Made by a program: the position numbers and the translations under genes. From Methylocella silvestris (lineage in GTDB: Bacteria; Pseudomonadota; Alphaproteobacteria; Rhizobiales; Beijerinckiaceae), in the NCBI RefSeq assembly GCF_002891535.1, contig NZ_PDZR01000014.1, forward strand, positions 1-64,000: 64,000 bases of DNA, written 5' to 3'. Below are positions 42,998 through 48,911 of this stretch, one piece after another. The first letter of the stretch is position 1. Every line of letters starts with the position of its first letter. Under the pieces are notes generated by a model. It was not told where the DNA came from. It made no database searches and saw only the letters and a program-made list of their open reading frames with translations.

Positions 42998-43720
42998 TCA
43001 GTGGCGGTTGATCTGCCGCTGACGTAGCGTGTCGACCTGATCCTGCACGATTTTATATTGGGCCGGGGCATCGCGCAGACGGGCGCGGCGGTTCTTCTCG
43101 GTCACCCAGAAATTAAAGACATTCGCGACGATAATCGACGCGATGAAGTCGTGGAAATCCTGGTCGAGCGCCGTACTCGAGCCGAGCCCATAGACATAGG
43201 GCGCGCCCTGCACGAGATAGCGTCCGATCGTCGGCTCGCCGAGAAGCTGCGGCGGCAGCCATTTCGTCGCAATGTCGATCTCATCCAGCACATGCAGCAA
43301 TTCATGCTCATAGATGCGCGCAAAAATTTGCACGGAGAGATCGTCCTTCGGATTGTAGTCGACCGATTTGGCCAGATACATCGCCATCTCGAGATCGAGG
43401 AAGACATCGCCCCCCAGAAACTCGAATTTCCACGGACCGTGCTCCGATCCTGACGCCGAACTTCTGCGCCATTGCGCATTGGCGTCGGCGAATCGGATCG
43501 TCGGCGCCGCGGTGACGAGGCCGTCGACGATCCTCAGCTGTCCCGACTGCGCGGCGCTGGTATTCGGCGAAAGCCGCATCATTTCGGGAACGTCGACGAT
43601 GTTGGGATAGCGGATGTCGCCTTGAGCGACCCCCGCGGGCGGCGTGACCCCGAAATATTCCGGCGGCAGCAGCAGCTCGTTCTTGGGCCAGGTGATGCGC
43701 GGAACAAATTTGACAGCCAT
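42998..43720 (-). CDS. Unrecognised protein with HExxH motif
   Basis: 240 residues with no signal peptide. Residues 139-147 read HELLHVLDE, an HExxH zinc-peptidase-like motif with a further acidic pair at +3/+4. Around it, FLDLEMAMYLAKSVDYNPKDDL and QIFARIYE are helical. I do not recognise the family, and peptidase activity is only suggested by the motif. It lies 89 bases downstream of tal on the same strand and ends with a charged helix (KIVQDQVDTLRQRQ). Confidence 0.6.
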   Translation of the reverse strand: MAVKFVPRITWPKNELLLPPEYFGVTPPAGVAQGDIRYPNIVDVPEMMRLSPNTSAAQSGQLRIVDGLVTAAPTIRFADANAQWRRSSASGSEHGPWKFEFLGGDVFLDLEMAMYLAKSVDYNPKDDLSVQIFARIYEHELLHVLDEIDIATKWLPPQLLGEPTIGRYLVQGAPYVYGLGSSTALDQDFHDFIASIIVANVFNFWVTEKNRRARLRDAPAQYKIVQDQVDTLRQRQINRH

Positions 43721-43809
43721 GGGAACCTCCGCCGCCTTTATGGCGAGGCTCTCAGGCGGCGCCGGTGCGCTGCGTCACGCCGGCGTCCTTATCTGCAAAA
43801 TCATCATGA

Positions 43810-44802
43810 TTAGAGGCTGGCGAATTCGCCGTCCGCCGCCGCAAGCAGGCGCTGCGAGACAAGCTCACGCAGAGCGCGAAGATCGCCGCTGAACACCCTG
43901 ATTCCTTCGGCAAGTTTCTCGGTCGCCATCGCGTCCTCATTGAGCATGAAGCGGAAGGTCTTTTCGTCGAGATCAAGCTTTGCCGGAATCCGGTCCGCCG
44001 GGACATGCGGCGTCAGCCGCTGCTCAAGTCCGCCATCGTCGCGGGCGAGTTCATCGAGCAGCTGGGGCGAGACCGTCAGCCGGTCACAACCGGCAAGCGC
44101 CTCGATCTCCGCCTTGTTGCGGAACGAGGCGCCCATGATGACGGTCGAAACGTCATGCGCCTTGAAATAATCATAGATCTGCCGGACCGAGAGGACGCCG
44201 GGATCGGTCTCCGCCGTAAAACTTTTCCCTTGCGCCTTCATGTGCCAGTCGAGGATGCGGCCGACGAAGGGAGAGATCAGAAAGGCGCCGGCGTCGGCGC
44301 AGGCGACGGCCTGCGCGAGCGAGAAGACCAGCGTCATATTGCAGTCAATCCCCTCGCGCTGGAGGATCTGTGCGGCATGGGCGCCCTCCCAGGTGGCCGC
44401 GATCTTGATGAGGATCCGATCACGGCCGACGCCCCGGCGCTCATATTCGGCGATGATGGCGCGAGCCTTGGCGACCGTCCCCTCGACGTCGAAGGACAGA
44501 TCGGCGTCGACCTCGGTCGAGACGCGGCCGGGCACGATCTTGGTCAGTTCCTCGCCGAAATTGATCGCCAGCCGGTCCGCGACCTCGCTCGTCAGCCGAT
44601 TATGGCTGCGGCCCCAGACGATCGCCTCATTGACCAGAGGCTCATAGGCCTTGAGCTGGGCGGCTTTCAGGATGAGCGTCGGATTGGTGGTGGCGTCGGT
44701 CGGGGCGAAAGCGCGGATCGCCTCCATGTCGCCGGTGTCGGCGACGACGGCCGTCATGGTCTTCAGCTGATCGAGTTTCGAAGGAAGTTTTTGCGCGGAC
44801 AT
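43810..44802 (-). CDS. tal: Transaldolase
   Basis: 330 residues. DATTNPTLILKAAQL, ILIKIAATWEGAHAAQIL (Schiff-base Lys) and CNMTLVFSLAQAVACADAGAFLISPFVGRILDWH are hallmarks of the classical TalB-type enzyme. It moves dihydroxyacetone units between sedoheptulose-7-P and glyceraldehyde-3-P. In methylotrophs it also serves the ribulose or serine-linked sugar phosphate pools. The ATG at 44802 was chosen over an upstream open frame. It is 84 bases downstream of the lanmodulin-like gene. Confidence 0.93.
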   Translation of the reverse strand: MSAQKLPSKLDQLKTMTAVVADTGDMEAIRAFAPTDATTNPTLILKAAQLKAYEPLVNEAIVWGRSHNRLTSEVADRLAINFGEELTKIVPGRVSTEVDADLSFDVEGTVAKARAIIAEYERRGVGRDRILIKIAATWEGAHAAQILQREGIDCNMTLVFSLAQAVACADAGAFLISPFVGRILDWHMKAQGKSFTAETDPGVLSVRQIYDYFKAHDVSTVIMGASFRNKAEIEALAGCDRLTVSPQLLDELARDDGGLEQRLTPHVPADRIPAKLDLDEKTFRFMLNEDAMATEKLAEGIRVFSGDLRALRELVSQRLLAAADGEFASL

Positions 44803-44886
44803 GGGCGATCCCGTTGGCGTGGCGGATCTTATAGACCAACCCGTTCCCCTTTGCATCGCCCCTGTTCGCGCTTGTCGCGCCGCGCG

Positions 44887-45303
44887 TCAGTCGATCAGCT
44901 TCTCGAGCGCGCGGCCGGCCTTCGAGTGGAATTCCTTGGCCTCAAGCGTGCCGTCGTTATCGACATCGGCCTTTTTGAACAGACTTTCGACAATCGTCAT
45001 ATATTCGGCCTTGGTCAGCGTACCGTCCTTATCGGGATCAGCCGCCTTGAAAGCTTTCCCTTTGACCACGCCTTTGGTTTCCGCGCGGTCCAACGTGTCG
45101 TCGCTATCCTTGTTTAACTTGTCGAATTCCGCCGAAGCAGCTGCTTTGACCTCCGCGAGATCGAGCGTTTTGTCGGCGTCCTTGTCATATTCTTTGACGA
45201 CGTCCGAACCGGCGAAAGCTACCGGAGCGCCAGCGATCAGCAGTCCAGCCGCAAGCAGGCTACACATGGAAAACTTTGCAAAAGCAGAGGGTTGAACCGT
45301 CAT
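44887..45303 (-). CDS. Lanmodulin-like periplasmic EF-hand protein
   Basis: 138 residues. A signal peptide (SMCSLLAAGLLIAGAPVAFAG) precedes four 12-residue EF loops at 40-51, 64-75, 89-100 and 113-124. Linkers are 12, 13 and 12 residues, the same spacing as lanmodulin and about half that of calmodulin. Lanmodulin's Pro at loop position 2 remains only in loop 3 (DPDKDGTLTKAE). An acidic residue at position 9 remains in loops 1, 2 and 4. Loop 2 begins with Asn. It likely binds lanthanides or calcium in the periplasm. Start set at the third of three close ATGs because of GGAG spacing; 45318 is possible. It follows tonB by 107 bases. Confidence 0.75.
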   Translation of the reverse strand: MTVQPSAFAKFSMCSLLAAGLLIAGAPVAFAGSDVVKEYDKDADKTLDLAEVKAAASAEFDKLNKDSDDTLDRAETKGVVKGKAFKAADPDKDGTLTKAEYMTIVESLFKKADVDNDGTLEAKEFHSKAGRALEKLID

Positions 45304-45410
45304 CTTCATCTTCTCCATCAGGCTGTTCGCCCTGAATTTAAACTAAAGGCCATCCCCGGGGAAAAGTCTAGGCGACAGGGAAAAACTCCCGCTCAAGTTT
45401 ACGGTTGTCT

Positions 45411-46286
45411 CTATTGCTGTCGGAAGTTGATCGGCACGGACAGCGTGACGGCGCCGCCCATCTCCGCTGGCGGCGGCGGGAACGGGCTGGATCTGTGGGC
45501 GATCGCAACCGCTTCCTGATCCAGCGCCGCCGAACCCGAACTGCGCACGAGGCGGGCCGACGCCAGCCTGCCGGAGCGGTCTATGGTGAAGGCGATTGTC
45601 GCGGCGCCGCTCGCGCCCTGTGCGCCGGCCGGGTAGCGCTTGTTGCGGTTGAGCGCCGCCGAGACGAGACCACGCCAATTCGAGGCCGACATCGCCGATC
45701 CGCCGCCGCCGCCGCCCGCGCCGCCGCCGCCCTGCCCGCCTTCGCCGGGCCTCCCGCCGGTTCGGCCCGGGGTAACGCCACGCGGAAGGCGGGCCGGCTC
45801 CGCGCGCTTGGGCGCCGGCTTTTCGCGAGGAGGCGCGATTTTCTTTGGCGTTGGCTTCGGTTTCGGTTTTGCCTCGAGCTTGGGTTTGATCAGCGGCTTT
45901 GGCGGCTCCGGCGGGACCAGCACCGCATCGGCCCTGGGCGCGGGCGCGATGTCGGGAACCGGCTCCGGCGGCGGAGTTGGCTCCGGATCAGGTTCAGGCT
46001 GCGGGACCGGCTCCGGTTCGATTTGCGGCTGCTCCGCCGTGATCTCCGGCTCGGGCTCGGGCGCGACCACGGCGCCGCCGCCATCCACCTGGCCTACCGC
46101 CATCGGGGGCAGTTCGATCATGATCGCGGATTCAGCAGCGCTAGCCAGCGCTTCGGGCTCGCTCTGGCGCGTCAGCCAATAGACCAGCCCCGCATGCGCC
46201 ACGAACACGACAGCGGCGGCGGCAATCCAGCGGGCGACCGGAGATTTCTCCTCCGGCGGCAGCACAAAATGCGCCTGCAGGGTCAT
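45411..46286 (-). CDS. tonB: Energy transducer TonB
   Basis: 291 residues. One N-terminal helix (about 20-39) is followed by a long Pro/Glu then Pro/Lys periplasm-spanning region. A Gly-rich hinge precedes the C-terminal TonB domain (YPAGAQGASGAATIAFTIDRSGRLASARLVRSSGS, DQEAVAIAHRSSPFPPPP). It transmits proton-motive force to TonB-dependent receptors. The start overlaps the exbD stop by 4 bases. Confidence 0.9.
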   Translation of the reverse strand: MTLQAHFVLPPEEKSPVARWIAAAAVVFVAHAGLVYWLTRQSEPEALASAAESAIMIELPPMAVGQVDGGGAVVAPEPEPEITAEQPQIEPEPVPQPEPDPEPTPPPEPVPDIAPAPRADAVLVPPEPPKPLIKPKLEAKPKPKPTPKKIAPPREKPAPKRAEPARLPRGVTPGRTGGRPGEGGQGGGGAGGGGGGSAMSASNWRGLVSAALNRNKRYPAGAQGASGAATIAFTIDRSGRLASARLVRSSGSAALDQEAVAIAHRSSPFPPPPAEMGGAVTLSVPINFRQQ

Positions 46287-46747
46287 AGCGGCGCGCCTGG
46301 CGCCTTCTGCGGCGGCGGAGTGCCGGCAACCGAGGCGGCGTCGAGGCAGACGAGGCCGATCTTCAGATAGCCGGCTGCGCGCAGCAGATTCATGGCTTCC
46401 ATGACCTCGCCATAGGGCACGGTCTTGTCGGCGCGCACAAAAATCCGCGTCTCCTTGTCATGTTCGGTCTGCTGGTCCAGCGCGGCGCCAAGCGCCGTCC
46501 GCCCGATGGTCTCTTCCCCGAGCGAGAGCGACAAATCCGGCTTTACCGTCAAAAACAGCGGCTTGTCCGGCCGCTGCGCGGCTTGCGCGGTCGAGGCCGG
46601 AAGATCGACATTGACGTCGACCGTCGAAAGCGGCGCGGCGACCATGAAAATGATCAACAGCACTAAAATAACGTCGATGAAGGGGGTGACGTTGATCTCG
46701 TGGTTGAGTTCGAGATCGTCATCCGCCTGCGTTAGCTTCACGGCCAT
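46283..46747 (-). CDS. exbD: Biopolymer transport protein ExbD
   Basis: 154 residues. HEINVTPFIDVILVLLIIFMVAAPL contains the single helix with the conserved proton-path Asp. RADKTVPYGEVMEAMNLLRAAGYLKIGLV is the periplasmic domain. It works with ExbB and TonB. The ATG at 46747 starts 4 bases after the exbB stop. The ending PPPQKAPGAPL is short and Pro-rich. Confidence 0.92.
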   Translation of the reverse strand: MAVKLTQADDDLELNHEINVTPFIDVILVLLIIFMVAAPLSTVDVNVDLPASTAQAAQRPDKPLFLTVKPDLSLSLGEETIGRTALGAALDQQTEHDKETRIFVRADKTVPYGEVMEAMNLLRAAGYLKIGLVCLDAASVAGTPPPQKAPGAPL

Positions 46748-46751
46748 GCGT

Positions 46752-47801
46752 TCACTCCGCCGGGCGGCGCATGGCGATGACATGCCGGTCCAGCTCGTCC
46801 CCGGACAGAGCGGCGCGGTCAAGATCGCGCGAGACGTGGCGCAGCACCTCCGCCGCCGCGTCGCCGAGCTGCGCCTTATAGCCGGTGATCGCGCGCGCGA
46901 AGACGTTGTAGATCATGACGGCCGGAATGGCGGCGACAAGGCCCATCGCCGTCGCCAGCAGCGCTTCGGCGATGCCCGGGGCGACGACCGCAAGATTGGT
47001 CGTGTGAGTCTTCGATATGCCGATGAAGCTGTCCATGATGCCCCACACCGTGCCGAACAGACCGACGAACGGGGCCGTCGCGCCGATCGTCGCGACCACC
47101 GAGGTTCCACGCGCGATCTTTCGCCCCGCATGCGCCTCGAGACGGGACAAAAGCGCCGCGACGCGCTCCTTGACGCCCTCTGCCGGCAAGCCGCGCGAGC
47201 GGACTTCCTCGCTCCGCGCCGCCTCGACGAAGCGGGCGACCGGCGAGCGCTGATCCTTGAACGCGGTTTGCGCCGCACTGAGATCTTCGGCCTCTGTGAC
47301 CGCCTCAAGGTCCCGGCGCGCCGATGCGCGGGCCCGCCACAGCTCCAGGCTTTTGACGAGCCAGATCGTCCAGGTGACGAGCGAGGCGAAGGCGAGGCCG
47401 ATCATCACGCCTTTCACGATACGGTCGGCGTGCAGGAACATGCCCCAGGGCGAAAGGTCTGTCGGCGTCGCCGCCGCAAGGGATGTCATTGGCTGTGGCT
47501 CGGCTTTTGCGGGCTCCAGCCCGGACGGGCTTGTGGCTGGATGCGGAGTTACGGCCGCAAGCTCCTGCGGGCTGGCCGGTTCGACGACCGGCGTTTGACT
47601 TCCCGGTTGCGCCGGCGCCGCCTCCGGAGCGGCGCTTGGCGTTTGCTCGCCGGCCGGAACGGGAGATTGCGTCGCCGCCGGCTGCGCGCCCAAGGGCGCA
47701 GCGCTCAAGGCGAAAGCCAGCACGAGGCCTGCAAGCCTAGCGCACAGCCAGTCGCGACCGCGATCTGCCGCGCACGACAAGTCCGTTTCCAGTCGGATCA
47801 T
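46752..47801 (-). CDS. exbB: Biopolymer transport protein ExbB
   Basis: 349 residues. It carries an N-terminal signal-like segment and an Ala/Pro-rich periplasmic extension of about 100 residues, as in rhizobial ExbB. Three membrane helices follow, with ATIGATAPFVGLFGTVWGIMDSFIGI and VAPGIAEALLATAMGLVAAIPAVMIYNVF, the ExbB/MotA family core. The ATG at 47801 has GGGAAC upstream. The translation start lies in a 21-base tandem duplication (47800-47834). First gene of exbB-exbD-tonB, with the lanmodulin-like gene next. Confidence 0.9.
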   Translation of the reverse strand: MIRLETDLSCAADRGRDWLCARLAGLVLAFALSAAPLGAQPAATQSPVPAGEQTPSAAPEAAPAQPGSQTPVVEPASPQELAAVTPHPATSPSGLEPAKAEPQPMTSLAAATPTDLSPWGMFLHADRIVKGVMIGLAFASLVTWTIWLVKSLELWRARASARRDLEAVTEAEDLSAAQTAFKDQRSPVARFVEAARSEEVRSRGLPAEGVKERVAALLSRLEAHAGRKIARGTSVVATIGATAPFVGLFGTVWGIMDSFIGISKTHTTNLAVVAPGIAEALLATAMGLVAAIPAVMIYNVFARAITGYKAQLGDAAAEVLRHVSRDLDRAALSGDELDRHVIAMRRPAE

Positions 47802-47834
47802 AGAAAAGTTCCCGTCAACAATAGAATAGTTCCC
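47800..47834 (-). repeat. Tandem direct repeat at the exbB start
   Basis: On the minus strand GGGAACTATTCTAT (47834-47821) is repeated as GGGAACTTTTCTAT (47813-47800), 21 bases apart and 13 of 14 identical. The second copy contains the Shine-Dalgarno and runs into the ATG. It may be a duplicated initiation region or a two-turn operator. Confidence 0.6.
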
Positions 47835-48077
47835 AATTAGGCCGCCGCTCGAGGTGATTATAAAGAATGACGCGTCCGCCAACCAGAAATTCAATCGATC
47901 TGGCGACTATTTGATGGATTTTACGCCTCGGCAAGCCGCAAGCGAGCGGCATGCGGGAAGAGGCAAGATCGCCCTTTGCTGATTCCGGCGAAATCAACCG
48001 GTGGCGGCGCGGGCATTGAAGACTCCCGCTCAGCAGTTCGGAGGGGTTCGCGCGGCCTTCTATGATCGGAATATGCT

Positions 48078-48911
48078 CTAATGCGCCATAAGGACCGGCA
48101 GATTCGCCTCGGCCAGAATCTCGCTGGTCACTTTGCCGAAAATCAATTGCCGCAGCCGGCTGCGCGTATAACCCCCCTTGATCAAAAGATCGGCGCCAAG
48201 CGAAGCGGCGGTGGCGAGAAGCGCGGCCCCGGGCGATTCATCCTTGGCCTCGATGACGCCGACCCGCGCGGGGGCGCCGTGCCGGCGCAGGCTCCGCGCC
48301 ATTTGTTCGTCGCTCGGCCCCGGCAGAGCCGGTCCCGGCACGGTGAGGATGATCACGTCACGGGCGCGTTCGAGCAGCGGCATGGCGAAGGCGACGCTGC
48401 GCACCGTGTCGGTCGTTCCATTCCAGGCGATGGCGATGCATTCGCCAAGCGTCTGCGGCGGCTCGGGCGGCGCGATGAGCACGGGCCGCCCGCTTTCGAA
48501 CAAAACCGCCTCAAGCGTCGATTTACGCGGCAGGCGGGGTCCCGTCCCCGGCCGCCCCACGGCGATCAAATCGAATGCGCGGCCATATTCGCCGACCCCG
48601 CTGTCCGACACGAGCGCGTCGCCAAGCCAGCCATAGGACGGCCGCGCCTCGCCATCGCGCGGCCGCTCGATATGCCGGCTCTCCATGAAGCCTTCGAAAG
48701 TCCGGCGGCCGTGATCGACGAAATCGCGACGCGTGCGATGGTCGAGGACAACGCCGCTGAGGGCAAAATCCGCAGCGACGAATTCGACGACGTCTGGGCC
48801 GACGGCGACCCCCTCGATGTAGGAATTGAACCGGCGCGCCAGCGTCAGAGCCGAAGTCATCACCGCGTCCATCATGACGTGGTCCTCGACCGGTATCAGG
48901 ATCGATTTCAT
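48078..48911 (-). CDS. Universal stress protein (two UspA domains)
   Basis: 277 residues. MKSILIPVEDHVMMDAVMTSALTLARRF opens domain 1. CIAIAWNGTTDTVRSVAFAMPLLERA opens domain 2, ending GADLLIKGGYTRSRLRQLIFGKVTSEILAEANLPVLMAH with the GGYxxSRxRE-like nucleotide-binding loop. Such tandem Usp proteins respond to starvation and stress. It stands alone. Confidence 0.88.
   Translation of the reverse strand: MKSILIPVEDHVMMDAVMTSALTLARRFNSYIEGVAVGPDVVEFVAADFALSGVVLDHRTRRDFVDHGRRTFEGFMESRHIERPRDGEARPSYGWLGDALVSDSGVGEYGRAFDLIAVGRPGTGPRLPRKSTLEAVLFESGRPVLIAPPEPPQTLGECIAIAWNGTTDTVRSVAFAMPLLERARDVIILTVPGPALPGPSDEQMARSLRRHGAPARVGVIEAKDESPGAALLATAASLGADLLIKGGYTRSRLRQLIFGKVTSEILAEANLPVLMAH

Follow-up and report, generated by a model that had tools for sequence, protein, structure and literature searches.

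A lanmodulin gene behind exbB, exbD and tonB

The DNA analysed here, referred to below as the window, is a stretch of 64,000 nucleotides from Methylocella silvestris (contig NZ_PDZR01000014.1 of assembly GCF_002891535.1), and our subject is a run of four minus-strand genes within it, exbB, exbD, tonB and a gene for a lanmodulin (LanM). ExbB-ExbD-TonB uses the proton gradient to power TonB-dependent receptors; lanmodulins are periplasmic lanthanide binders. The gene for ExbB, the proton channel subunit of the TonB system, occupies 46752..47801 with its ATG at 47801 (TIGR02797, 315.8 bits, cut-off 206.2). It is separated by a gap of 4 bases from exbD at 46283..46747 (TIGR02803, 196.7 bits, cut-off 152.95), which in turn overlaps by 4 bases with tonB at 45411..46286 (TIGR01352 for the TonB C-terminus, 66.2 bits, cut-off 27.1; also PF03544). 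With all three models above their cut-offs in a single gene run, the set qualifies as a TonB energizer. After a gap of 107 bases (45304..45410) comes lanM at 44887..45303, which encodes a divergent second lanmodulin of 138 amino acids with an apparent signal peptide. Its ATG at 45303 has GGAG nine bases 5' of it, and the frame contains two more ATGs, at 45309 and 45318. An initial annotation made from the letters alone had described exbB, exbD, tonB and an EF-hand gene on the minus strand with these same distances; our mapping reproduced its coordinates, and its range of 44887-47834 agrees with the mapped genes.

The lanM product carries four EF loops, all read from the minus strand: DKDADKTLDLAE (45151..45186), NKDSDDTLDRAE (45079..45114), DPDKDGTLTKAE (45004..45039) and DVDNDGTLEAKE (44932..44967). 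They begin at residues 40, 64, 89 and 113, with the spacing of 12, 13 and 12 residues that had been pointed out initially and that was verified from the translation. Shuffling the mature sequence 200,000 times never produced four such loops. The N-terminus, judged from the sequence alone, resembles a signal peptide ending in AFA. The protein scored 139.1 bits (138.7 in the genome search) with NF053806, the NCBI equivalog model of LanM, against a cut-off of 135. The closest solved structures by sequence were lanmodulins (6mi5, 1.5e-24; 8fns, 1.7e-24), and the first calmodulin followed at 7.2e-5. An AlphaFold2 model was built from 19 aligned sequences and had a mean pLDDT of 79.5, with residues 1-27 below 50 and confident values from about residue 31. 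When this predicted model was used in Foldseek, 8fns came first (E 5.8e-10, rmsd 1.0), followed by 8dq2, 8fnr and 6mi5; these four lanmodulin entries were the only matches with E <=0.001, and the first calmodulin appeared at 6.6e-3. The earlier proposal of a lanmodulin relative is thus borne out: by model score, and by a predicted fold nearer to solved lanmodulins than to calmodulin, the window EF-hand protein is a lanmodulin.

Like LanM of Methylorubrum extorquens AM1 (6mi5, 8fns), the window protein has four EF loops at 12-13-residue spacing and the same fold, as predicted. It differs in having the proline at loop position 2 in one loop, loop 3, whereas all four AM1 loops have it, in the N at position 1 of loop 2, and in the place of its gene, which stands by exbB-exbD-tonB and not in a lut cluster. 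The predicted fold is also that of Hansschlegelia quercus LanM (8dq2, 8fnr); window loops 1 and 2 are like its K-at-position-2 type, whereas loops 3 and 4 come closer to the type of M. extorquens. One could suppose, from the lack of the proline in loops 1, 2 and 4 and from a LanM score barely above the cut-off, that this is an ordinary calcium-binding EF-hand protein merely resembling lanmodulin. However, the cut-off is passed, the 12-13-12 spacing is short, and the predicted fold fits lanmodulins and not calmodulin. Moreover, the alignment shows the proline in one of the four loops of H. quercus LanM and not in the other three, so it is not family-defining, and LanM of Methylobacterium aquaticum 22A has T and K at position 2 of its first two loops (PMC9260416). 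The calcium-type candidate is disfavoured by the LanM model score and the fold comparison, and we regard it as highly improbable.

Two LanM genes are present in the window's genome (G000). The other one, called canonical here, lies on contig C43 (G000:C43:170329-170712) and has the loops DPDNDGTVSLAE, DPDKDGTLDAKE, DPDKDGTVDAKE and DPDKDGTLDAAE; it scores above the LanM cut-off, as does Msil_0271 of M. silvestris. A tree of 63 rows and 115 columns was made from 59 of the 64 LanM loci, the window copy and three PDB sequences, omitting two weak matches (L083, L084) and the duplicates L089, L090 and L091 (of L062, L119 and L110, respectively); 24 of its 60 inner branches are open. The canonical copies of the genus clustered with two LanMs of genus g36 (SH-aLRT 98), apart from the exb-linked copies. 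The window copy clustered with the exb-linked copies of the genus and with the LanM of G151, the deeper order being poorly supported. The exb-linked copies formed no separate clade, with tal-linked copies, L119 and some rows from other genera intermixed. In contrast to the canonical LanM and Msil_0271, the window copy thus falls in another clade and has other neighbours. Between the window and another genome of the genus, G040, dN/dS was 0.15 for the exb-linked copies and 0.08 for the canonical LanM of this genome pair, which demonstrates, by this estimate, purifying selection on both copies. In addition, divergent EF-hand protein pairs about 200-250 bases apart, with LanM model matches below the cut-off, were observed in five genomes of three other genera (G018:C5, G088:C167, G090:C3, G112:C18 and G115:C4).

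Gene order and transcription signals around lanM

The gene order was compared in a genus sample of 15 Methylocella and Methylocapsa genomes, all with an ExbB match and 13 with LanM above the cut-off. As judged from these sequences, most of the LanM-bearing genomes keep the order: in nine of the 13, exbB-exbD-tonB immediately precedes LanM and is read in the same direction (G000, G040, G076, G126, G144, G149, G150, G153 and G154). The G153 match to ExbD is split in two and that to TonB is short, and this copy may be damaged or badly assembled. LanM adjoins tal, a transaldolase gene, without the energizer in G152, G155 and G157; G151 has LanM elsewhere and tonB followed by tal; G103 and G156 gave no LanM match. 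A scan of named genomes yielded five loci, in Methylocella tundrae, Methylocapsa acidiphila B2, Methylocapsa palsarum and two Methylovirgula metagenome-assembled genomes, and both Methylovirgula loci were without the energizer. In a family sample of 149 genomes, 56 stretches were fetched around matches. ExbB, ExbD and TonB occurred near LanM in four of these, all from this genus, but neither in another four, which are canonical LanM loci of the genus, nor in any of the 48 stretches from other genera, seven of which surround weak matches (L082-L088) and several of which stop at contig ends. Among 40 further LanM-bearing genomes of an order sample (397 genomes), ExbD was never within 3 kb of LanM; the nearest, in G158 and G363, was about 10 kb away. 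The comparison of gene order in related genomes that had been suggested initially therefore supports the adjacency inside the genus, but found none outside it.

Other genes share this neighbourhood. In the window, tal (43810..44802; TIGR00874, 442.3 bits, cut-off 396.2) lies on the strand of lanM, 84 bases beyond it; it was absent from the initial annotation and is kept 3' of LanM in the genus. On the far side of exbB, also on the minus strand, a universal stress protein (Usp) gene occupies 48078..48911 (PF00582). No parts of an ABC transporter were found among the seven neighbouring open reading frames (ORFs) from 42998-48911 that were run against Pfam. At ten loci of several genera (L059, L061, L065, L070, L073, L074, L075, L092, L093 and L111), the gene after LanM, read in the same direction, encodes a related hybrid histidine kinase that shares 52-90% identity with that of L059, and this pairing may point to lanthanide signalling.

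Consensus scans detected no terminator-like site in the 107 bases between tonB and lanM, and no promoter-like site of the sigma-70 type on the minus strand from 43700 to 48150, including this gap; terminator-like sites numbered 4 in the whole scan and 4.1 in shuffles. These results leave room for an operon. The tonB-lanM gaps of the nine genomes measure 95 to 277 bases, taking one ATG in each, and the start codons are unsure in several. In G152, G153, G154, G155 and G157, however, LanM has a promoter-like element, TTTACT, 16-18 bases and GATA[AG]T, that starts 76-89 bases ahead of it. This pattern, drawn up with the five sequences already in view, matched nowhere else among 64 LanM upstream regions or in 238,699 bases from 15 genus stretches. 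Two of the five genomes have tonB upstream and three do not. These upstream sequences favour an own promoter of LanM in this subgroup; the region upstream of the window lanM is without the element. A simple operon is thus a candidate only, with no terminator-like site in the gap, yet an own promoter-like element in five relatives.

These observations bear on the possibility of an inherited neighbourhood with no shared function. LanM would then have a promoter of its own and, as long-standing neighbour, tal, joined in other genera by a hybrid histidine kinase, and an iron-type cluster would have arrived upstream once and been held there by synteny. In agreement with this, the LanM-tal arrangement exists without the energizer in G152, G155 and G157, the order LanM-kinase-tal occurs in G009 and G050 of another genus, and energizer and tal adjoin without LanM in G103 and G151. 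The own promoter-like element, with tonB missing upstream in three of its five genomes, and the conservation of the surrounding genes fit as well. However, the order has outlasted strong divergence of TonB, whose identity to the window protein is 36-40% in G149, G150 and G154, and also the disappearance of the receptor part from the window and G040, described below; other lineages, too, have LanM close to TonB-type transport. We hold such passive inheritance to be a serious, if somewhat doubtful, explanation.

A possible regulatory sequence was also considered. GCGGGAKTTTTTCCC, with at most one mismatch, occurs at three places in the genome, two exact ones upstream of the two lanM genes and a mismatched one on C54. 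It was derived from comparing both lanM upstream regions, so that these two matches are by construction; the reversed control matched at one place, and about 0.1 exact matches were expected (first-order model on 217 kb). The near-identical 15-mers GCGGGA[GT]TTTTTCCC stand upstream of both lanM genes, in the window as GCGGGAGTTTTTCCC at 45378..45392 on the minus strand and upstream of the canonical gene at G000:C43:170222-170236, and exactly nowhere else in the genome. GCGGGAATATTTTCCC lies upstream of a pyrroloquinoline quinone (PQQ) dehydrogenase gene on contig C25. The GCGGGAKTTTTTCCC pattern does not occur ahead of the exb-linked lanM in G040, and a looser pattern compared with its reversed control gave 12 versus 6 matches in G000, 6 versus 6 in G126, 5 versus 7 in G144 and 3 versus 4 in G149. 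A putative operator common to both lanM genes is thus a lead only.

The company of the energizer in relatives

In five relatives (G076, G126, G144, G149 and G150), genes for a TonB receptor, a PepSY_TM protein and a PKHD hydroxylase precede exbB-exbD-tonB; in the first four of them these genes sit between the Usp gene and exbB. Two of the receptors were tested and passed TIGR01783, the TonB-dependent siderophore receptor model (247.9 and 261.9 bits, cut-off 223.5); with the Fiu model they reached 427.1 and 407.1 bits and failed its cut-off of 686. The one PKHD protein tested scored 350 bits with NF003975 (cut-off 180). Because of this company, we class the energizer as iron-type. The window locus shares exbB-exbD-tonB with such a siderophore receptor-PKHD iron locus, and differs from it in the lanmodulin gene downstream and in the missing receptor part. 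The receptor, PepSY and PKHD genes are absent at this place from both the window and G040 (PKHD and PepSY were not searched for elsewhere in the window's genome). A whole-genome search for TonB receptors (PF00593) found no match on the window's contig. The genome has six TonB-receptor matches, none of them closely related to that siderophore-type receptor (best 26% over most of the length). In G040, an opposite-strand ORF of 566 amino acids with the glutamate-synthase domain PF01645 lies between exbB and the Usp gene (L068 11182-12882).

A lanthanide-specific energizer has to be rejected as stated, since relatives have the same set behind a siderophore-type receptor and PKHD, also without LanM. 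In other families of the order (for example G471, G192 and G402), too, a PKHD gene was found no more than about 1 kb from ExbD, in genomes whose LanM lies elsewhere. Of the metal-uptake module that had been suggested initially, the lanmodulin and its kept position behind the TonB genes stand, but by descent the energizer is not lanthanide-specific; very likely it also serves iron receptors. That it is the sole TonB system of the genome was not upheld either. Contig C75 carries a pair of ExbD-like and TonB-like genes (L126 6357-7606, G000), with an ExbB-like match just upstream.

A TonB-receptor match was present in the examined flanks of 13 of 57 LanM loci, which are not independent, five of the 13 being the exb-linked ones of this genus. 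In genera g9 and g18 the gene immediately upstream of LanM is that of a receptor. It is this nearness of LanM to TonB-type transport that the window locus shares with the lut lanthanide-uptake cluster, from which it differs in having an energizer and not a receptor. Four PQQ alcohol dehydrogenase matches in the window's genome are above the family cut-off, and one of these genes is adjoined by that of an 811-amino-acid TonB receptor; the two lie side by side and divergent on C25 (L132 3424-8320), a contig other than the window's. Judged from this layout, they are likely the xoxF1 and LutH homologs of the genome, in agreement with the adjoining LutH homolog and xoxF1 reported for M. silvestris (PMC9291206).

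In G073, a genome of another genus, a run of siderophore-type receptor, PepSY and PKHD genes leads directly to a LanM of the canonical clade with no exbB-exbD-tonB between (L048 2883-8420), and the contig stops 333 bases past the LanM match. This arrangement looks like a separate event. Another explanation is lanthanide-iron sorting, in which the locus would import metal-siderophore complexes and LanM would catch siderophore-borne lanthanide, for use or to spare iron proteins. This idea agrees with the siderophore-type receptor, PepSY and PKHD genes that adjoin the energizer in five relatives, with the apparently separate case of G073 and with the siderophore reported to act in both lanthanide and iron uptake in M. 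aquaticum 22A (PMC9301485). In contrast, the window's species and G040 keep LanM without receptor, PepSY and PKHD at this place. We consider such sorting unlikely.

A possible role for the exb-linked lanmodulin

In M. silvestris BL2, La raised the LanM Msil_0271 39- and 26-fold; of the proteins other than methanol dehydrogenase (MDH), those associated with MDH and those of lanthanide trafficking, only two are said to have changed under both conditions (PMC9291206). G040, which we infer, partly from its LanM order, to be strain BL2, has its canonical LanM at 314 kb and its exb-linked LanM at 904 kb. By its gene number Msil_0271 is expected near 0.31 Mb, and so it is most likely the canonical paralog and not the exb-linked one. 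For the latter, as opposed to the La-induced Msil_0271, no published response was found in the literature available. In strain RH AL1, exbB and exbD decreased with Nd (log2 -0.82 to -1.40), and the same report calls the exact role of lanmodulin still unclear (PMC10848612). M. aquaticum 22A grows on methanol without needing LanM (PMC9260416). Two Methylocella sequences with M. extorquens-type motifs have been described, the divergent ones being left open (PMC12482762). Searches limited to open-licence papers, as far as their text was available, gave no description of LanM beside exbB-exbD-tonB, in line with the initial remark that no description of this exact gene arrangement was known.

Taken together, we favour the following reading, with a probability of about 0.4: a divergent second lanmodulin is encoded directly behind an iron-type ExbB-ExbD-TonB set and, in its predicted role, is a periplasmic lanthanide binder functionally linked to that set. 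A shared function of LanM and energizer is plausible. Lanthanide(III) ions would enter via TonB-dependent receptors, driven by ExbB-ExbD-TonB and the proton gradient; the window LanM, exported to the periplasm, would bind the incoming lanthanide and may act there as a buffer or hand-over protein. LanM would probably have a promoter of its own that accounts for at least part of its transcription, and as a consequence the genes are better regarded as neighbours of related work than as a proven single operon. This reading rests on the LanM score, the lanmodulin matches by sequence and predicted fold, the dN/dS of 0.15 and the adjacency in nine of the 13 genomes, and is further supported by the presence of LanM near TonB-type transport in other lineages (the 13 of 57 loci, genera g9 and g18, and G073) and by the decrease of exbB and exbD with Nd in RH AL1.

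Several observations weigh against the link. The adjacency looks like one event in one genus and is broken in four of the 13 LanM-bearing genomes, and since the neighbours tal, GGPS and Usp are equally kept, it may reflect no more than general synteny. Five relatives have a promoter-like element for LanM itself. The cluster of receptor, PepSY, PKHD and energizer is found without LanM in G103 and in one of the two G157 copies, and 44 of the 57 LanM loci have no TonB receptor in the examined flanks. Finally, the La response published for the genus is, as reckoned from gene number, most likely that of the other paralog.

A more far-reaching idea is that Methylocella and Methylocapsa have a second lanmodulin class that might be, in the periplasm, the dedicated acceptor for lanthanide taken up by a siderophore-type, TonB-driven route distinct from that of LutH, and that would sort lanthanide from iron at entry; we regard this as rather improbable. 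The new loop combinations may interest users of lanmodulins for rare-earth separation. With two copies in one genome, one LanM may serve import and the other buffering, and M. silvestris deletion strains have been published (PMC9291206). Importantly, the presence of another, divergent lanM next to the energizer, in the majority of the genomes of the genus that encode LanM, provides a testable handle on the cellular role of lanmodulin.

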